NCBI RefSeq assembly: GCF_964204645.1
Contig: NC_134031.1
Span: 1,364,001 to 1,428,000, forward strand
Length of the DNA stretch: 64,000 nt
Direction: 5' to 3'
Source of the DNA: Tubulanus polymorphus
Lineage: Eukaryota; Nemertea; Palaeonemertea; Tubulaniformes; Tubulanidae
In this document: in pieces, positions 6,166-64,000 of the stretch
How the letters are laid out: each line of letters begins with the position of its first letter
Numbering within the stretch: position 1 is the first letter of the stretch
The notes under the pieces: model-generated
The model's input: the letters and a program-made list of their open reading frames with translations, nothing else
What the model was told of the DNA's origin: nothing
The model's database searches: none
Program-made: the position numbers and the translations under genes

Positions 6166-6724
6166 TAAACTATCTTTAACTAACAACTTGTCGTTTTATC
6201 ACAGAAATAAATTCATAAAAGCAGTAAAATATTCAATGGTTAAAATCGATCAACTTTCGCTACATGAAAATTCATCGAGTCTTCGTGAATTTCTGTTGGT
6301 CGAAGCAACGATGACGTTACGAGTCTATATTAAACCTACACTGACCCGATAACAAAAGCTTTGTAATAGTCAACATGATCGAAAGATTAGATTCGCATAA
6401 CTTTCGTAATAAATAGCTTAATCTGGATGAGTCGAGTTACATTATCTTATCATCGGAAAAAATATACAGGCCGTATTTACTTTGAAGTTCGATTTGATAT
6501 AAAAACAATATCAGAGAAATCTGACCCTAAGATTTTAACTGGTTTCAAATTTCAAGAACACGTATTCAATATAAATCCCTCCATTTCGTGGAATGCTTCA
6601 CAATTTCCAGGAAGATCTCGGTCTAATGTTCTTCCATTTCCTGGAAATATTTCGGCGTTCTCGTAACAATTCCTGAAAATGCGTCTGCTCAAGAAAGTCA
6701 CTAATTTCACTATTATCGACCGGC
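2734..6724. other. Intergenic interval between convergent GCLM and RABL6
   Basis: No supported gene. It contains the GCLM 3' untranslated region, five of the foldback repeats listed separately, a tRNA B-box-like stretch at about 3783-3797, a purine/pyrimidine-biased repeat around 3395-3550 with several CAGGGAATT copies, and a C-rich CCCGCCCG run at 4310-4322. The 122-codon open frame at 3556-3924 overlaps the B-box-like repeat, has no family resemblance and is not called. Confidence 0.6.
3750..3910 (+). repeat. tRNA-derived SINE-like fragment
   Basis: A consensus RNA polymerase III B box (GGTTCGAACCC) sits at about 3786-3796, but no tRNA cloverleaf can be drawn around it. It is followed by a repeated CCCAGTAATTACT-type motif. 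The likeliest reading is an old tRNA-derived SINE fragment rather than a tRNA gene. Confidence 0.35.
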
Positions 6725-8469
6725 TCAAATCGTTTCATATTCCTCGGTTCCTAGAAATGCTTCTAATTCGTCAATTTCTTGCGGTTCCCTTTTCTTTTTT
6801 TTCTTCTTCTTTTTCTCTTCTCCCCCGACGCCGCTATCCTGGTCTTTGTCTTTATCTTTGGTTCTTCGATGTTTCTTTTTCGTTGTTCGTTCTTCTCCCT
6901 TCAAACATTCGCAGGAAAAATAAAGAAAATCTTGATACAAATTTCAGGATATAAATCAGGGGGTTCTTAAAGATTAGAAGTTCCCCCAAATTTCCCAAAC
7001 CCATGACCTACCATAAAATAAACACAACATACAAGTGTAATGTTTATTTTACGATTGCCGGAGATTGATGACAATATAATAAAATAATGATAATATAACT
7101 TAGGAGAGATAGCTCTCGGACAGCTTCAGAAAATTACTGAGCTCTGACAAGAAAAGAGTCTGAATTTCCGAGATTCCCTGATTTCCCATATTTGCCAGAA
7201 AAACTCTTTCCGTGACACTAATAATCAATACCCACCTCTTCTTTGTCTTTAGTTTTACTCTTCTTTTTCTTCTTAGCTTTTTTCACAGTTTCTCGATCGG
7301 TGTCGGTGTCCTGAACACTTGACGCCACAAAATCACTGTTAGTTGATGGCGTCACACCTTAATACAGAAAAATATCTAATTACAAAACAAGTTCCCCGGC
7401 GACTTTTCCCTGACATGTACTTTTTTTTCTCTGACTTGACCTGCTAAGAATCATAGATGGAAACTGTTTGATGTTTACGCCCAATCTAGCAATCTCAACA
7501 AATTTCCCTGACTTTTCCCTGGTTTTTAGCTGCTTTTCTTTACACAAGATTCCCTGACTATCATGCCCAGACTTTGTTTAAAAAAAGAATATTCCCTGAG
7601 TATCATGCCCAGACTTTCTGAATATTCCCTGAATATCATGCCCAGACTTTCTGAATATTCCCTGAATATCATGCCCAGACTTTGTTTAAGAAAAGAATAC
7701 TCCCTGAATTTTAACTGATTTCCAAGTTAAGCGGCCACCCTGTTAGATATAGTAAGAAGACCATCATCTAAATTTCAGCGCTCTCAAAAATCCTGCTACC
7801 AGGTCACTCATGATTTCTGTCAGTAAAGAGCTGTAGTAGTATCTACTTACTGGGACTCACTGAAGACAATCCTTTCTCTAATACGCTGAGATCTTCAAAC
7901 TGTAACGCGAGTCCGGGATGTTCCATCACATCATTCGTCATTTTACTCGAATCATCATCATCAGACTGAACGCCGGCTACTATCGATCCGTTGACCTTCA
8001 CATTCTCCAATCCGGCGACCTTCGCCTGTTCAAGGTCGTCGCTATCGATATCCTCGTCTGCGAGTATTTTAATCGGCGCGTCTCCGCTTCCGTCGTCGTC
8101 CGAATCCGACAACGAAATACGACGCGATTTTTTACCGTTTATAGAAACCTGCTGCGTCATCGTCGGTTCAGCGGCCGATTTTATCACAGTTTGTGTTTTT
8201 GATTTCGATGACGTTTCCTCATCACCGAGCGACTGATGTTTACTATATTTCGTCTCCGCGGCGACGACGTCCATTGTTGTCGTTAAATCGAGAGACATTT
8301 TTTGTTTTGATTTAGAAGTTTTTGAAATTTCCTTTTTAGTCGATTTGTTTTGACTGGTTGTCACGACGGCGGTTGTAGGTGTGATCTCATCGTCGATATC
8401 CGACACCTCGACCTCCACAGCAGACGACACAGATGATGAATTTCTGCTGCGGCTGATTTTATTTGACTG

Positions 8470-8506
<37 letters not shown>

Positions 8507-11500
8507 GTCTCCTCTTCATCCTCGCTATCTAAATCATCTTGAAACCCGGCAACCATCGGATTGACGCCTTCATCATCACTGAATATAGAACAAACTCCAT
8601 TGTGTCAAAATCTCTCTGAAATCGTATGATTCTAATTCCAGGGTTCTAACAGATCCAAAATTTCCAGATATTTCCCTGACCTATGAGCAAAAATTCCCAG
8701 ATTAAACCATCAGATACTCTGAGCAGTCCTTTCCCTGGTTTTCAAGAATAGTTAGAATTTTCTGATTTTTTCTGTCCAAAACCCAGTAATTCACTACTCA
8801 CCTATCATCACTAACGTCCTGACCCCCGGCGGTGCCGCCGTTTGTTCGTGATTTTGAGATCTCTTCTTTCGCCGTGTCGTCGAGGAAACTCGTGTCTAAT
8901 TGTTCATCGGGTTTAAAGTCGTCAACGCTGGAGACTGTCTGTCGACTGTCACTGTGCGATACAACAGCTGAAATACAAACACAACAGTCATCAAAATCAA
9001 TATCTCTTAATTGAGGATTCCAAAAATACCAGGGCTCAGTTTCATAGACGTAGGAAAAAAACCTGTCAATCTGAAATCTGTCAGTTATAACCACGGTTTC
9101 TCATTGTTATATTGTGGTTGAGGACCTTTGATACCCAGTCTATGAAACTAGGCACTGTAAATCAAATAGCTACAGTCAAACTAGCTTCAGACAATACATT
9201 ACTGAAGTCGCCTCTATTTTAGAGTCTCAAAATTTCTATTCGCAATTCAATTTATTAAGCGTAACTCGTCATTTCGGTATGTTATTGACATATAGGTTGT
9301 CCCAACTAAAACAAGCGAGTTTGATCGTCGATATCAATGTAATATTCGTTGTCCCTCTTAGACAAACCTTGGAGTAATCAATGATTACTCCAACGACAAA
9401 CACATGCTGAGAGCAGACTTTTCATGATGGGAGAAATAAAGCATCCACCAGCCAGGTAATTAAAGCAGAAACAGATTCAACCACAATCTAAAACAAAATT
9501 AACAATTTCGCTTTTGCCACTTTCAAATGGTTGTTAAGTTAATTCTGAGGAGGGATCAGTGTGTGAGACTTCGGATGAAACGCAATCTAGAAACCATGCA
9601 AAAAACTGAAACAGTCGCTGCATGCCTCGAGCTGCTATCAAAATCAATCTAACCAAAAACTAATCTATTCTAGAAACACAGAAAAGATACCATGAAATCC
9701 TCCGATGACATCACACAGGGATCTGAGCGGAGGTTTAGTTACACAGACTGAGTTCAGGTGGAAATACAAGCATTTGAAATCCTGAGACCAGAACACATAT
9801 GATACACAGACACACATAGATAGTATCTATCAACCAATCAATACGCGGTAAAAATTCACCTGCGAATATATTAACTGATTCAGCTGATTCAGCTTCAGGA
9901 GTGCTGAGTACAGAACCATCTGAAACTATTAAATACAAATAGACAATCGCAGTCTCTGCTTCTTTCAGCTACATCAGTGCATCATGCTTTAGATTTACAC
10001 ATAAATTTGAAGTTTATAACTCTTCATTGTTTTGAAGTTGCAACATTTGGTTTGGTGCATACTAGACACTAGTGCTAACCTGGTTCGTCCTGTTTAGGTC
10101 AAACCAGTTTAGGTTTCAAGTGCAGCAGCATTCAATGACAGAGAGTGATTGAATGTTCACGAATTTTGGTAAAAACCAACCATCGGAAATATCTCTTTTG
10201 ATCGACGGTGCTTACCGTTGCTACTACTCGATTCTGGAACTTTGTTTTTGCTGCCGAACAATCGTGACATGAATCCGCCGCCGGTGGTTTTCGGAGGTTC
10301 ACTAGGAGTGGCTGGTAGTGATATCGAGGCAGGAGGGATACTAGGTGCATTCACAGCTGCTGGTGTCGTAGGTTGCGATATGTTTAACCCGGGTATCGGC
10401 TTCGCAGGTGGTGCTACAAAATACGAAATACTCTATTTCTTCAAATATAACTTATGGAAGATATAGATGTGATTCATGTTGCTCTAAACAAAATCAGCTG
10501 AACTGGCTGAATCAGAAGATTCATATCCCTGTTTTCAGGGTTTTTGCAGATCATGAAATGCAAAATTCCCTCTATTTCCCCACATTTTCATCGACCCTCG
10601 ACCAAAATTTTCTTAAACTCAATGATAAGATATCCTCAGTTTGGGGGGGGGGGCTGTCTCTTATCAAAAGGTTCCTTGCGCAAGACACCAAAAATCAAAA
10701 TTCCCTGACTTTTTCCTGATTCTCAAGAAGAGTCACAATTCCTCCCAGAGTGAACTGTATGAACTGTGTAATTATACCTGCTCTGATCGGTGTAGGTTCT
10801 ACAGGAACTGGTTTTGGACTGATATTAATCGCTGATGGTTTGCCGTTCGCGAGGAGGGCAGCAGCAGCAGCCTCTCTAGCGGCCTTCTCCTCGGCCTCTT
10901 TCTTCTGAGCGGTGACTATCGCTGCCTCTGATAACTTCTCTTGTTGCTGTCGTCGTTTGACGGTCAAAGCATCGTTAAAACTGAAACACACACACAGATC
11001 ACAGGTAGAAAGTTCAGTTAACCGAGAATCAATTACAGAAGTGATAAACATATAAATATCATCTTTTATAATGGGTAAAAACGGTTTATACTAAACTCAT
11101 TCAAATAAATAAAACTAAAGATTTTCACATCAGGTCCAAGTTAAACGGGAGTCACAGTTTTATTCATTTGATTTACATGTTAGAAAATGAGATCTATTTT
11201 GCTTTATGGATTTTCTGCAAATCTTATAGATATTCTCACTCATAGCAACTGTCTATAATTTCAATGTATATGAAATCAATGACGTAATTTTACTATTCAT
11301 TTTTCATCATGTAATTTTCAATGGCAATAGATTTGTTTTTAGTGAATTAGTGAACAGTGATCTAACGAAGCTGATTCGATTTTAACAGTGTTTTGTTAGT
11401 AAACAAAAATTCATAGAATTCATCAGATTAAGCACATCCCATTCCGTCAGGGTCCAGTGGCTCGAGAAAGGTTCGTTAATGTTAACCAATGTTTAAAATT

Positions 11501-54024: not shown

Positions 54025-54260
54025 AGGCCAACCCTAGAATTTGCACGATTCACAACCAGGCCAACCCTAGGATTTCCTCGATTCACAAACAGGCCAACCC
54101 TAGAGCTTCCATGATTCACAACCAGGCCAACCCTAGGATTTCCACGATTCACAATCAGGCCAACCCTAGGATTTTCACGATTCACAACCAGGCCAACCCT
54201 AGGATTTCCTCGATTCACAACCAGGCCAACCATAGAGCTTCCATGATTCACAACTAGGCC
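54025..54260. repeat. 33-bp minisatellite, about 7 copies (copy 2 of 2 loci)
   Basis: Same 33-bp unit and orientation as the array at 41430-41825, about 12.2 kb away, with extra variants (TAGAGCTTCCATGATTC in two units). Flanking sequences of the two arrays do not look alike. Confidence 0.93.
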
Positions 54261-54887
54261 AAACAAGCGCAAACAAGGGTGGGTATGGTTCAACCTTGTC
54301 CTCTTACACCGGCAAAATTGGTCCTAAAGAAGTCAAGAGTTAAGGATAGGAAAGTAAGTCAGAAAAAACAATTTCGTTTCATTTTCACCTTATCTGAGTA
54401 AGGCCGGACCGGAACTAAATTACTTGTAATCTGATTGATGCAGTTTGCTTTGTTTTTGTCGACAGCAACAACCCCCAGTCCAAAAATCAATAAACACCAT
54501 TTCAAGCGTCAACGAATCTTATATTCTTCATGAATAAAAATACATTATGATATAAAATAGGATGGGACTTCATTAAAATCTCGAATATCAAATAGAATAT
54601 ATTATCTATTAAATGAGTACATTGTATATAATAACATATTGTAGCACAGCACCATTTAGAAAGATCACAAACTCTACACGATAAACATTGGGGTGGTTTT
54701 ACAATTGCTGACTAATTATCAAAAATTTTATTTCAATATAACTAGAAATATTAAACAAATAGGAAGTTAAAACTTATCTTAAACATTACAAAATAAAATT
54801 GTTCACAAATAATCACAGTTTTTATGGTATAGCCTAATTGAGACATTCTCCCGGTGTCAAAAATTAATTTCATGTACGTACAGTAGC

Positions 54888-57800
54888 TTATTTTGGAGAA
54901 AAGTTCAAATAATCTTCGAGCCATTTGTTTGCAGTGACTCGTTTTTCGGGTTGCGATTTCCACGAGTCTAACATCAATCGTTTCCACTCGCGCACAACCG
55001 ATTCATTGCTCCTGTCAGCAGCTATCGATTGTAAATCGGGTCGATTGGTTTCGACGTATTTCAGAAAGTCGTTTACGGTTTTTGGCGATTTAGGAGACGT
55101 CAATTCAGCGTCGTAAGCTCGATCACCGGTCCACATTTCCCACATCATCAGCCCGATCGCGTACATATCAGCCGCTGCGTGATATTCCCCAATTCGGAGC
55201 ACTTCGGGGGCAATATATCGATATGGTGTTGGGTCGTCTTTTGAAATATCCGGCAACTTTCGATGATTCGAAGAGAAATTGACCAATTTGATCATGTTGT
55301 CTTCAACAACCTGAAAATAACAAAGAATCTAATATTTCATCGAACAGACACCGAGACCCAGTCGTTCCGTATTTGTGAATAAAAACCCAAGATCACAACA
55401 TGGAAAATTAACGTATCTTATAATCTTAACTCAAAGTTTACTCTACAGCTTTGGAATCTGATTCAGAATTCAGGGTAAAACTTTAACTGACAACTGTTGA
55501 ACTGGATCCTCATTTAGGTCACCACATTTTTATAAAATAAGTTTAAACCTTATGACTCTTTAAATACTGATTTGTCTTGAATGAGTAAACTCAGGCAAAA
55601 GGCATTCTATATTTCAAGGGCATCTTTGAGTACCAGTAAAATTGTGGATTGACAAAATATCCTTTCTGGAGCAGAGCATTCAAGTAGTCTAGTACGTAGT
55701 CATAGTTCACGAAACAAGGTAGGGGAAACGTATATTGTCTGGTATTCAGACAAGGTGTATTTAACATACAGAGGAACCTCATAACAATGAACTTCTGGCG
55801 ACCTGAAAAATGTTTGTTTAGTTTTAGGACGAAATTCTGTGTTTGTATCCAAGGCCATTAACTATTGAGTAAGTCATAGCGCGTCTTACCGCAACTGTGT
55901 CGAGAGACAGGTCAAAATGTGTCATTTTCTTGTCATGCAGATATCGAAGGCCTTCGACGATTTGTCTGATGATTGAATTGATCTCACAGATTTTTGATGT
56001 CACGTCGTCGATGGTTGGTATCAATGAGATCATGTTGTATTCGCGCAGCGCGTACAGAATCGGGTCCAAAATAAAATGCATCGAATCATTGTCGACCTGC
56101 ACTATACCGTAGAACTTCACTAATCGACTGTTACACTGGTATCTACAAAACAGAATTGAATACCTTTAAATCAATTGAAAATTTTAAACGATATAGACTC
56201 TTATTGCAACTTGGTTTCCATAGACAAACGAATGTCAAAGGCAATTGATGAAAAAAAACACACAAAAAGAAGTACAACTATAAGATAATTTTGATGCGGA
56301 GCTATTTTCAAAAGCAGATTTATTTTGGAAGAGTTATGCTACTTTTAATGCGGTATGGTCAATTTTAGGATGAATGGCTTTAGTTCTCTAGAACTAGTTC
56401 ATCTGCAGTGCAATGTTTCAACCTTAGAGTCAGAATTTGAAAACAGCGGAACTGGATTCCGATCTGCATTACCTGAATATGAAAAGATACAAACCCATGA
56501 GCGTATGTCATTTCTTCATCTAAATAACAATTCATATCTTCAGGCGAAATTGGTTTTTTGTAGCTACGAATGGAAACTCGATCTGCGCCTCGTATGGAAC
56601 CATCGCAAATATCAGCGAGCAAATTCTTCATTACTTTTCTTTCACTCATAACAACATCGCTGTTGAAATACTTATGTATGCTGTTAGTTCGCTGGCTGCT
56701 GCAGGTTGACATTAAACTGAACAATTCAAAATGATAAAGTCGATTTCGAATTGTCACAATGCTATTTTTTAGACCAGGATACAAGGCAAGATCTCCTTCT
56801 TTACCCGTGCCTTTTAGTAGAATATCAATCTGTCTTTTGTCTGCTTCTATCAGTTCTGGAATTACGTCTTCCAGGTCAGTCACCATTTCAACTGCCGGTT
56901 TGAGAATATCTTGCACGTGGTCTTTCAGAGCATTCTTGCAAAAATCTTTCAACGACATTTTCATAACCTTTGAGATGAATTCTTTCGGATTTTCCTGATA
57001 GCGAACTAACATTATTTCAAAGTTCATCGCTTGTACTTGTTCTTGGATGTACAAAATGCCGTAATACATCAAACCCGGTAAACCTAAAATAAGGGCAGCC
57101 GGTGCCCATATTGGCACTGTAAGTCCAACAGCGACTTTCCTCGCTGTAGTCTTAACGCTCGAATCAACCATGTCGATGATCGCTCGCGAGACTCTTTGAG
57201 TTTGTGGACGCACAGATTTTGAAGGGTCAGCAGACGTCGTATCAACAGCATGAGTTTCCAAAACGGTTGAAATCCTATCGAGTTTCAGTAGAATATCACC
57301 GTACATTTTATTATATCTTTCAACGACTTCAGGACAAACTCGAGCAAATCTTTTCTCCTTTGATTCCCAATCGTTTATGTGACGTTTCAACTCTTTAGCG
57401 AATATTTGTTTCAGAGTTTTTTGAAAAGTGTCCACTCCTTGAATTTGTGAATTCATCCCGTCGTTGCAGCAAGAAGTACAAATATCTTCAACAACTTCAT
57501 CTGTAAATCAAAGATTTCATAAATCACCCTTGATTACCGTAAACTAAAAACATTTCTGTATGATATGCGATTTACCTTTCAGCAAAAACGCTTTTAAATC
57601 TTTGGAAATCATTTTTACTTCATCTTCGACATATTTTCTGAGTGATTTCATTTGTTTCTCTGAATATTCACTGAGTTTTTTAATGCTCGCGCGCGAATCT
57701 TCCAGCAGCCGTTTGTTATCCTCGGCCGATTTGTGGCATTTATTCATATTTCCGCTGATTTGACGAAATAACCGTTTCACAAAACTTTGAATCCAGCTAG

Positions 57801-60717
57801 ATAAAAAAGAATTCATATCTTTCAATCGCTGATCTATGAATCATGGAATTTATTTGTTCATAGAAAATCATCATCTCTGCTCTATGCTGTAAATTAATCA
57901 AAATGAAATAAAGTAGATTCCAGTCACATGGGATCTTTTTGAACCATATAAATTATCCCAACTTGAGAGCGAAAGCAGAGTTGGATGTTATATAATTCAG
58001 GGTCAGAAAAATAATATCTGACCCTAGTTGAACAGTTATCTCAAAGATAATTATTTTACTCGAACGATCATCTCTGAGTCAAACAGTTATCTTCACGAGT
58101 TAAAAAGTCTCGAAGTTCATCGGATCCAACTTGAGAGTTATCTGTTTAAATTAAGATTTGATACTTACCAATAGGAATATGTTAGTTTATTCTCAAGTCC
58201 GTTAGGAATTAAACGCTTTATTCCATCAAGCAGTGCTATGAATTCTGGAGTCATACAGCCACCAAGCTCTTTAGGATATGCATTTTCAGCTAATTCAGCT
58301 TCTAAAGCGCTGAAGGGAATCACTTGTTCATCTTGTAAACCGGTCCAAACTTTTGCCAGCTTTTTCCTGACTTTTGACAAAACCATTTCGCGATCGGCCA
58401 ACTTAACCTGAAAAAAAACCCTGATCTTACGAATTCACGTTAAACGACTTTTGTAGATGAACATTTGAATTTTCTGACTCACCAGATCCCATTGATTACA
58501 CACAAATATCGCGCTTTGAGGTAAAAACATTCTGCGATCATCTAATGACTTGAGTTCAGTAACTTTATGAAGTAAACTGACGAGCTGTAAACAATTCAAT
58601 TTCATATGATCACAAGTTTGATTAAAAAGTTTGACGGAATCGTTTGAAATGCTATGTTCAGCATATCTTACAATTTCATCATTCTCAGGTTGATGCTAGA
58701 GAACATTTTATCAACAACATGGACAGTAGATCTTCAACCCTAACAAGGTGAGTACCGACAGTAGCAGAGGCGCAAGTCATACTCCCTTAAATGCATTATG
58801 GGTTTAAGGCTTCACTGATCAGAGTTAAATAAGCTTACGCAATTCATGGCTCTTTATATTTTGAAGGACACTAGAAAATTTGTTTAACTAATTTGTTTTA
58901 GATTTCATCACTTACTCGATCTTCTTGAACTCCCAGTCTATTAGTAACATTCACTACGTAAAGGAAAGCAGACGCATTCACGAGTTCATCGATGACCATA
59001 TTAGTAAGACCAGGAACATCACCAATACCAGGACTATCTACTATCGTAATACCATCCTATGAAATACACAAGATATAAGGAGGAACCTTAAGAATGGGAA
59101 GATGACTATTAGGGTACAGTCAAAATATTGAATGAATTCTGCTCAATTCTTTAGATTTTACATTATCATTACAACACCGACTCATAGAGTGTTTCATCAA
59201 AATTGGTCTAGGGTTGGTGTCTCTAGTATCTTAACCTTACCTCCAAAAAATCATTATTCAAATATATGACCACTCTAGCGTAACGACCTCTATCGCTGTT
59301 TTCACCCTTGCGTTGTATATATTCAGCGAGATCCTCGGTGAAATCCGGACCGTCGCTCAGTAATACCTTGTCTCCTTCTCCAGGCCACGGAAAAACCTCA
59401 GCGTAGCGTTCATCAGTTTGAGATTTTGTGATTTCACAGATTGTGAATGTGTTGCTCTCGAAGTTTGATGGAAGCATGACTTCTCCGAGTAAACTATTCA
59501 GCAGCATAGTTTTACCGGCGACTAGTTCTCCTACAACATCAATTATATTCATATCAACATTAGGCTAAACAAAGATGATACCTTGTTTCTCCGCAGCAGC
59601 TGGGTCTGGCGGGTGTGTTATGGTAAAATTGATCACAATCTTTTAAGTAATGTACAGGGTAGATAGGCGGCCGGACAGGGTCAAGTTTTAAGCTCAGCAG
59701 AGCGTGAGAAACAAGGTATCAATTTTTTTCAGTCTTATTTGGCTATTTGTTCCAATGTTATTGTCCAAACCAAAACTATTAACATCTTTGTCTAAAGCAG
59801 AACATCAAGTTAAGAAATCAATCTTTTGCCCAAACACCCTTCGGTATCAGTAAATAGGCCTAGTACCAAACAAATAGTGGTTGCAGCAATAAGATCAGCA
59901 TACCGGCGATTAGAATTCTGAAATTGGTTTTTTCTAATTTAGCGATGTGTTCATCGATCAATGACATGAAGTTAGGAACGATTTCTTCCATCTCTACGTA
60001 AAGTCGATCGTCCTGACTCTGAACATCAATCATCAAATCCTTCAAATTTTCCAATGATGACTTCAATTCATTGCAACTTCGCTCATAATTCCTCGCTAAA
60101 TCTGTGAACACCTCGGCTGGCTGAAAAAAAATCAATACTTGGACCTGACTGCAGTGAACTGATATAAATCTCAGTGTAGAGTTAACGAATAAAACCCACA
60201 GTTACTTCTGTAAATAACAGTTTATTGCCTTACAGTTTCGAGGTTAAAACTAAACCTCATCTTCAGAGGAAAAAAAAAATCAAATTTTTTGTTTAAAACT
60301 AAACCTCATCTTCGGAGAAAAAGAAAATTACATTTTTTCTTCGACCTCTGAAGATGAGGTTTAGTTTAAACATCGAAACTGTAAGGAAATAAACTGTTTG
60401 TACGAATCTACTGTGGGTTTTTATTCGTTATACTTGGACCTGTTTCTGTATCGATAGCTGCAAGTATTGTCCTAATTAAGGCACTTATCTTTAAAACTGT
60501 CTTGAAAAAATGTAGACGTAAAATTACAAACCTCTCTCCTTTCATGTAGTTGTGTGTAATTATTTTTGTAGTAGTAAATACGTAGACAACGTTTCAATCC
60601 TTCCAGGTCCGTAGCTTGTTTATAGTTCGGTACAGATTTAGCGCGGCACAAATTACGCGCTTCGAAAGCGTTCAACTTTTCGATTCGCTCCAATGAAAGC
60701 TCCGTCTGCATTTCCAT
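54888..60717 (-). CDS. Dynamin-like GTPase fused to a C-terminal pseudokinase, 10 exons
   Basis: Predicted 1025-residue protein. Exons: 60717-60532, 60120-59904, 59530-59241, 59056-58916, 58584-58483, 58407-58169, 57796-57576, 57500-56495, 56142-55890, 55310-54888. The GTPase has P-loop GELVAGKT (135-142), G3 DSPG (238-241) and G4 NQWD (308-311), as in dynamin/mitofusin-type GTPases. A coiled-coil-like stalk and a hydrophobic stretch (about 588-617, GLTVPIWAPAALILGLPGLM) follow. The kinase fold at the end keeps APE (919-921) but lacks key residues: VSIR in place of VAIK (about 774-777), HFD in place of HRD (876-878), Thr883 for the Asn of the catalytic loop, NFS in place of DFG (896-898). AATAAA on this strand lies at 54732. 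It resembles DSTYK-like/GTPase-kinase proteins of invertebrates; the role is unknown. Confidence 0.86.
55311..55889 (-). other. Intron 9 of the GTPase-pseudokinase with a cryptic open frame
   Basis: The intron between the catalytic-loop exon and the NFS exon contains, on the coding strand, a TTTTTCAG acceptor followed by an open stretch of about 70 codons (to 55591) with no recognisable family. It could be a poison or alternative last exon, or chance. Confidence 0.25.
58169..59904 (-). other. GTPase domain exons of the GTPase-pseudokinase
   Basis: The P-loop is built across the exon 2/exon 3 junction (59904/59530). Residues after it, SNFESNTFTICEI, fit the switch I position with a conserved Thr. 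VDSPGIGDVPGLTNMVIDEL is the G3 region and AIFVCNQWDL the G4 region. All three nucleotide-contact motifs look intact, so GTP binding is plausible, unlike phosphotransfer by the kinase end. Confidence 0.85.
60148..60429. mobile_element. Foldback retroposon-like element with 13-bp flanking direct repeats
   Basis: Direct repeats ATACTTGGACCTG occur at 60135-60147 and 60430-60442. About 36 bp after the left one the inverted arms begin (TAACGAATAAAACCCACAG at about 60183; CTGTGGGTTTTTATTCGTTA at the right end). CTCTGAAGATGAGGTT / AACCTCGAAAC hairpins occur on the - strand (60269-60236) and in diverged form on the + strand (60346-60382). The layout equals that of the 11.8-kb element although the arm sequence differs. 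It lies in intron 1 of the GTPase-pseudokinase. Confidence 0.65.
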
Positions 60718-61738: not shown

Positions 61739-64000
61739 ATGGATTATTATCGGCATGGATATATTCCGTAGGTTTCACAATTAATTCGGCAGTTTTTTGA
61801 ACCTCGGTCGTCACAAAACAAGATTAGTAAATAAATGGTTGACACGTATCACACGCATTGTAGTTTTCTCCAGTGTTTTAAGTAATTGATCTTGTTCTGT
61901 AATTGATCTAAACACAATTATTTGATTTGATGTATTGTATATAATTTTAGTGGTTTGATGTTGGCAGTTACTTTGTTACTGTTCATACCATCGTTATATG
62001 CGACAGGTACGTCAAAATTATTTCACTTCCTGTTTTGACTTGGTCTCAATAGAAATAGGCTTTATATATAGGAATGGATAGATGTGCAAATACAAACGAT
62101 TTTACTTGAAAACCTATTGAGAATTACATTATGCCATTATTATAATGGGTAAGATATTAGTATATTTTCTTCAGACCCGAACACTAATAGCCCGTGCCCG
62201 TCTGGTTGGATTAGTCGGGGACGATCGTGTTATTTCATCTCGGATGAGAAGTTAACCTGGGCCGCCGCTCGGGCGAAATGTTTACTGTTAAACTCTACAT
62301 TAGCCGTAAACAGCAACCCGAATGAGAATCAGTTCTGGAAACGGCAGATTGTCGACAAAACGCGATCATGGTTCATGTTGTTTACGGAGCCTCGGTGGTG
62401 GTTGGGTGCTGCTCGCTATGGTCGCAAGGCTGAGGATGATGATATATCAACAGATACCGGTAAGAGAGAACACTTCCAAATTCACGATGAGAAATGTTGG
62501 AAATGAACCTGTATGGTGTCAAGTTGATAAACACGATGACTTGAAATGAGGAGTTTTCGCTACTAGTGCATACATACATCTTCACGTTGATCGAATCCAT
62601 CCAAACAGTTACATTGATAATCTTACCTCCATTCAATAGGATCCATATTTTCGGGATTTTTCAAGAAGGTAGCTGGATTTTTTGGACTCGGTGCCGATCA
62701 AGAGGACACCCTTGATTCCAGTGCGTAGTGGATCGAAAATCATCATTACAAAAAGTCTTATCAGTTATGCAAATTATCCTTTTTTATTTTTCATATCTAT
62801 ACGAAAGAATGGATTTGGGAAGATTGGTCGACAGCGCCTTTGACAAGATACTATTGGATTCATAAACCGGATGATTCTGATAATCTGAAATGTTTGATGT
62901 TGCGGCTCAGTGGTTTGTGGCAATCTGAAAACTGTGCCGAAAAGAACTATTACATTTGCGAAAGAACAAGCGGAGGTTAACTAAATTCATCATTACTGTG
63001 AATTCATTGCGACATATAATGAATGCAAGATTTTTTCGAACTTATTTCATTGAAAATTTCTGTTCCAAACGGATATTTTCAGAGCGATATATTCAACAGT
63101 TTTCGGAACGCCCGTCATCGCTGATTTGCCCGGGAAAGAAGCGAATTAAACTGACCACGTGGCGAATCGGTCCGGACTGGAGCGATGCGAAAGCAGACCC
63201 GATGAAATGTCCATTGTCGAATACGGCAAGTATACTTATTTACACAAAGATTAGAACTGTGAAGATTTTGTGAATAACGGCCTCGATATTCGAAAGGTAA
63301 AAAAGAGTTAAATTTAGTTTTTGTGTCAGGTTATGGACGACTGGTCGAAAGCTGTCTCAGTTTGCGACGGAAAAACGAGATGTGATTATGATTTCAAAGC
63401 TGTTTATGCTTATGACGTTTGTAACGAGGTCAAAAAGGTTTCCTACTTGCAGTATTCGTGTATTCGCCCTACAGGTAATCAGACGATCTCACTGAACTCC
63501 TGACATTCATGGTCCCGGCTTCTTGTATCAGGAATAAATTACAACATCTGCTAAACGACTCATACGTTTTAAACATTTCCGGGATTGTTCTTTCTATAAT
63601 GAAGTTCGTTTTCAGTTTGTCCCAATACGACAAAAACAGTTAAAACATGGATCACACGGAACAGAATGTGCTACGGGAGTCACACACGAGTGACCAATTC
63701 ATACGAGTCAGAATACCAGTGTCAAACATACAGCCGTTTAGGTCATCTATTAAGCATTTTAGACCCGGAAGAAAATGAATGGATAAAACCATCGTAAGTT
63801 GAATATTTCTAATCTATATTTTTAAAGATCGATTCGTCGATTAGAAAAGTATCATATTTCTTTTCGAAGTATGTATATAATCGTTAATTAGTCGTAGTAC
63901 TATGATATTGATGGAAGCTCGCACTGTCCAATCAGAATCAGCCCGTCTTGACTGGCTTTCTGCGATTAATCGTCAGTTCTGTCCCTATGTCGTCGACGAA
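61739..64000 (+). CDS. Secreted C-type lectin / SUEL lectin protein, partial (3' end outside window)
   Basis: Exons: 61739-61767, 61951-62006, 62175-62459, 62808-62975, 63083-63225, 63330-63474, 63616-63793, and from about 63898 off the end; phases are consistent. The start MDYYRHGYIP is followed by a signal-anchor-like GLMLAVTLLLFIPSLYAT. A C-type lectin domain follows: CPSGWISRGRSCYFIS, WAAARAKCLLLNSTLAV, WWLGAA, then WEDWSTAPLTRYYW and YYICERT, with WIHKPDD in place of the EPN/QPD calcium-site motif. Next is a galactose-binding (SUEL/RBL-type) domain with ICPGKKRIKLTTWRIG, CDGKTRCDYDF and LQYSCIRPTG. A second C-type-lectin-like domain begins VCPNTTKTVKTWITRNRMCY. The intron after 63225 has a GC donor. 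A role in recognising glycans is inferred from family membership. Confidence 0.85.

Follow-up and report, generated by a model that had tools for sequence, protein, structure and literature searches.

A putative DSTYK-like family member with intact GTPase motifs and a degenerate kinase domain in the nemertean Tubulanus polymorphus

Introduction

DSTYK (Dusty protein kinase; RIPK5 in some databases) is a disease gene, linked to urinary tract malformation and to spastic paraplegia SPG23. Its product has roles in STING signalling and in the biogenesis of lysosomes. Mitofusin and the bacterial dynamin-like protein are dynamin-superfamily GTPases with a membrane hairpin, in which a GTPase is followed by helices, a hydrophobic stretch and further helices. 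A third known arrangement is that of the LRRK/ROCO proteins, in which a GTPase and a kinase occur in one chain. DSTYK is found on late endosomes/lysosomes, which are enlarged and fused when it is overexpressed (PMC6981171). Mammalian DSTYK acts on STING, and the kinase-dead protein is still located at late endosomes/lysosomes, binds STING and fails to signal (PMC11933320), so localisation and binding are carried by non-catalytic parts or properties of the protein.

Here we describe a gene in a 64,000-nucleotide stretch of T. polymorphus DNA (contig NC_134031.1, positions 1,364,001 to 1,428,000; hereafter the window), for which the original prediction had proposed a dynamin-like GTPase fused to a pseudokinase, with DSTYK named as a protein for comparison.

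Results

The gene lies on the minus strand (60717→54888). Its ten exons are bounded by GT–AG sites, and the spliced model is open throughout, giving a product of 1025 residues, the length that had been predicted. Exon 1 (60532..60717) carries the start codon and residues 1-62, and exon 2 (59904..60120; 217 nt) ends within the P-loop glycine codon, in phase 1. Exon 3 (59241..59530) encodes the G1 and G2 region, exon 4 (58916..59056; 141 nt) contains G3, exon 5 (58483..58584) contains G4, and exon 6 (58169..58407) covers the end of the GTPase domain and the region after it. Exon 7 (57576..57796) encodes helical sequence; its acceptor was picked to keep the reading frame open and to match a phase-2 intron that a paralogue described below shares. 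Exon 8 (56495..57500; residues 467–800) encodes further helical sequence, a hydrophobic stretch and the degenerate kinase N-lobe. Exon 9 (55890..56142) runs from kinase beta-4 to the catalytic loop, and exon 10 (54888..55310) holds the kinase C-lobe and the stop codon. An alternative acceptor for exon 7 (57833) and an alternative donor for exon 8 (56473) were discarded, as both broke the frame. The introns have a GC content of 29–38%, GC differs between codon positions in a coding-like manner, and an AATAAA lies approximately 156 nt downstream of the stop codon. Judged on its sequence, this is a real, functional-looking gene. Two adjacent genes are unlikely at the locus, because exon 8 by itself spans helical sequence, hydrophobic stretch and kinase N-lobe; the paralogue has the same layout.

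Other features were noted in and around the gene. Intron 1 contains an inverted repeat (60216-60398; 64-nt arms, 89% complementary, 55 nt apart) which could be a small mobile element, and a minisatellite (54025-54262; 33-bp unit, 7.2 copies) follows a short way downstream of the stop codon side of the gene. On the opposite strand, a C-type lectin-like gene has exons (62153-62980, plus strand; Lectin_C, 1.2e-6) next to the start of the gene described here.

Pfam identified Dynamin_N at residues 131-272 (E 7e-14, far above chance). The three GTP-binding motifs originally described as intact were all present in the spliced product: G1 GELVAGKT at residue 135 (residues 136-142, ELVAGKT, at 59508..59528, the codon of the first glycine being split with exon 2), G3 DSPG at residue 238 (59027-59038) and G4 NQWD at residue 308 (58486-58497). 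Motifs and profile together place the protein in the dynamin superfamily. Its strongest hydrophobic stretch (Kyte-Doolittle 2.0 over 19 residues) spans residues 588–617 (VAVGLTVPIWAPAALILGLPGLMYYGILYI; 57046..57135), between GTPase and kinase, where a membrane-like segment had been proposed; among the genes compared, only the paralogue has a counterpart. The likeness to mitofusin and the bacterial dynamin-like protein is one of layout order alone, and the window protein differs from both in its C-terminal kinase fold. With LRRK/ROCO it shares the presence of GTPase and kinase in one chain; however, its GTPase is dynamin-type by Pfam rather than a Roc GTPase, and the protein gave no COR or LRR match.

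Pfam also identified Pkinase at residues 792-1017 (E 7e-23, far above chance). VSIR replaces VAIK at residue 774 (56566..56577), exchanging the beta-3 lysine for arginine; HFDLSLDT replaces HRDxKxxN at residue 876 (55896..55919), with loss of the arginine and the asparagine; and NFS replaces DFG at residue 896 (55272..55280). The losses read in the original prediction were thus borne out, as was its statement that APE (residue 919; 55203..55211) and the helical lobe are kept. The aspartate of HRD, a point which it had not stressed, is also kept, and a glutamate at the αC position is a candidate alpha-C Glu. The glycine-rich loop is unrecognisable. The protein therefore has a kinase fold without catalytic residues, as expected of a pseudokinase. 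A PDB sequence search returned generic kinases only among the 60 matches listed, and an AlphaFold model of exon 8 alone, with a pLDDT of 48, was set aside. Splicing that restores canonical residues is unlikely, since the HFD and NFS codons sit within exons and no kinase-like exon was found in the introns.

Relatives were sought in the 268-Mb assembly of the same genome using the window protein as query. A paralogue at C3:4837925–4843238 (hereafter the C3 paralogue), reconstructed as nine exons and 1060 amino acids, aligned end to end with the window protein and has the same layout, including a matching hydrophobic stretch. Both genes have one exon of 217 nt and one of 141 nt, and their shared introns agree in phase. 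Identity was 25-26% from the N-terminal region to the hydrophobic stretch and in the kinase C-lobe; the middle regions are barely alike (16%). In contrast to the window protein, from which the kinase motifs have been lost, the C3 paralogue is intact in both halves (GETGAGKS, DSPG and NKWD; GRGSFG, AVK, HRDLKLEN and DLG), with Pfam matches to Dynamin_N (4e-18) and Pkinase (4.5e-38). A relative with intact kinase motifs, for which a survey had originally been suggested, is therefore present in the same genome.

About ten related genes, DSTYK included, were found in this genome. Beyond the C3 paralogue and the DSTYK orthologue these comprise approximately seven dynamin-type GTPase genes, six with a kinase or kinase-like tail, for which exon joins are approximate. 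Two form a near-identical tandem pair (C4:24277556-24281210 and 24287032-24290682), a recent duplication, with both halves intact (GQTKAGKS, DSPG and NKID; AVK, HRDIKSSN and DFG). An intact-looking GTPase is followed at C2:29596333 by a degraded kinase (RLTDLRPNN, no DFG; Pkinase 2.9e-8) and at C2:23202870 by FHFAEYSPNN, with no DFG and no Pfam kinase match; these two genes are similar over their full length (6e-95). C9:5913602 and C5:18363464 likewise have an intact-looking GTPase, here with a kinase-like tail in an advanced state of decay (for C9, E 1e-4). At C3:18166090 a GTPase is present, and a continuation beyond it was looked for and not found. A long tandem array with several frames open and repeated RPRQFIILVLSPATIHYFGFVARDNS-like translations occupies about 6533-9999 within C3:18164501-18174500, downstream of another GTPase exon.

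The DSTYK orthologue was located at C3:7778765–7788324 with an approximate human DSTYK sequence as query, identity to which reaches 81% in one of its exons; the same query also retrieved the C4 pair. It is this gene that is the true orthologue; the window protein lacks active kinase motifs. Within C3:7777501-7790500 there are two versions of one kinase exon (C3:7781022-7781180 and C3:7780427-7780591; 66% and 44% identity to the approximate human sequence), which look like mutually exclusive alternatives for the beta-4 to alpha-D segment. The pre-kinase part of DSTYK from this genome aligned with that of the C4 protein over approximately 577 residues (E 1.9e-18, with no use of the human sequence), and a profile comparison that had the approximate human sequence among its DSTYK entries gave 8e-22; a profile built from the window and C3 proteins, two rows in all, gave only a weak match to the N-terminus of DSTYK. 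At the nucleotide motifs DSTYK has GQTSNAKA and VVMSPC, against GQTKAGKS and IIDSPG in the C4 protein. The N-terminal half of DSTYK, which had no assigned identity, thus aligns end to end with a paralogue that keeps a complete P-loop; it looks like a decayed GTPase, and is best read as one stripped of its nucleotide motifs. No description of it as a GTPase was found in the literature searched, of which coverage was partial.

DSTYK and the window protein both consist of an N-terminal GTPase-like region, a helical middle and a C-terminal kinase fold, and their genes have the catalytic-loop and alpha-C introns in common. The original pointer to DSTYK was well placed. They differ in that DSTYK has kept its kinase and lost the P-loop and DxPG, the opposite of the window protein, and in that the strong hydrophobic stretch is absent from DSTYK.

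Intron positions were compared across the family. The phase 1 intron in the P-loop glycine codon is identical in the window gene, the C3 paralogue and the C4 genes, and the phase 0 intron ten codons from the HRD histidine, in the catalytic loop, is identical in these and in DSTYK. The alpha-C/beta-4 intron is in phase 2 in all six genes checked, its position in the window gene agreeing to within a residue. The catalytic-loop intron point (residue 922 of the C3 paralogue) is crossed without a gap by some 25 other kinase matches from this genome, a count biased towards uninterrupted matches. In the GTPase tree the window gene and the C3 paralogue form a pair (96/93 support), and their GTPase is similar to that of the other GTPase-kinase genes (profile comparison, E 3e-14), with no similarity to EHD in the comparison. 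The kinase tree was less informative than the introns: a single clade uniting the family kinases was neither shown nor rejected (p-AU 0.215), and the window protein sits on a long branch, unpaired with the C3 kinase (p-AU 0.286 when the two were held together). Among the kinases tested, the best match of the C3 paralogue was DSTYK (5.6e-21).

Discussion

The gene combines the GTPase-type region, helical region and C-terminal kinase fold of a DSTYK-like protein with intact GTP motifs, lost kinase motifs and a hydrophobic stretch limited to itself and the C3 paralogue. We read it, with a probability of roughly 0.55, as a divergent DSTYK-like family member in which the GTPase is live and the kinase dead, and which is a putative GTP-switched scaffold at a membrane. 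Family membership rests on the shared intron positions together with the GTPase similarity; taken by itself, the kinase tree leaves the question undecided. The original reading of a GTPase joined to a pseudokinase was right, but the word 'fused' misleads if taken to mean a one-off event, because the GTPase-kinase layout predates the window gene and is common to the family. If the pairing with the C3 paralogue is right, kinase catalysis disappeared in the window gene independently of its loss in the C2 and C9/C5 genes, given that the sister gene has retained an active kinase.

The pair could instead have arisen by a separate joining of a GTPase and a kinase, with its likeness to DSTYK being convergent. 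The scatter of the window and C3 kinases among other kinases in the tree, the strong hydrophobic stretch found in this pair only and the poor similarity of their middle regions all point that way; an independent origin would nevertheless have to reproduce exactly an intron in the GTPase P-loop and another in the kinase catalytic loop, and given also the DSTYK match of the C3 kinase and the failure to reject a single family kinase clade, we regard it as unlikely. In some predicted pseudokinases nucleotide binding or catalysis persists in a weak or unusual form, and the window protein keeps the HRD aspartate and the candidate alpha-C Glu, with arginine in place of the beta-3 lysine. Retained activity of this kind is nonetheless quite improbable, for in established kinase chemistry the metal and phosphate contacts depend on the DFG aspartate, the catalytic asparagine and the glycine loop, and the joint loss of all three means that these contacts are gone. 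That the locus is a decaying pseudogene is very improbable: divergence has been fast (kinase end branch of 2.68, versus 1.15 in the C3 paralogue), but 1025 codons are open over ten exons with sound splice sites throughout, base composition by codon position is coding-like with an AATAAA downstream, and the GTPase motifs are intact.

As a DSTYK-like member with a live GTPase and a dead kinase, the window protein would bind and hydrolyse GTP and dimerise, with GTP driving dimerisation. The GTPase and the hydrophobic stretch may hold it on a membrane, which by analogy with DSTYK would be that of the endosome or lysosome, and the pseudokinase may act as a docking or allosteric surface, not as a catalyst, serving client proteins or an active family member. 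A role as a membrane-linked signalling scaffold is plausible, and one in innate immunity, as raised in the original prediction, is a candidate with indirect support in the action of mammalian DSTYK on STING and in the neighbouring C-type lectin-like gene. As a tentative and rather unlikely extension, labour may be divided within the family, with GTPase-only members (the window gene, the C2 pair and the C9/C5 pair) pairing with and controlling those which keep a kinase (DSTYK, the C3 paralogue and the C4 genes); pairing would occur through the GTPase or helical regions, and control would be exerted on membranes, the GTP state gating kinase output.

The larger interest is the family itself and the mirror-image decay among its relatives. 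Through relatives with an intact P-loop, the N-terminal half of DSTYK gains an identity and a function that can be tested. The window gene, in which the GTPase is kept and the kinase lost, is the mirror image of DSTYK. The family offers a natural experiment on the question of which half, GTPase or kinase, is the one that counts.
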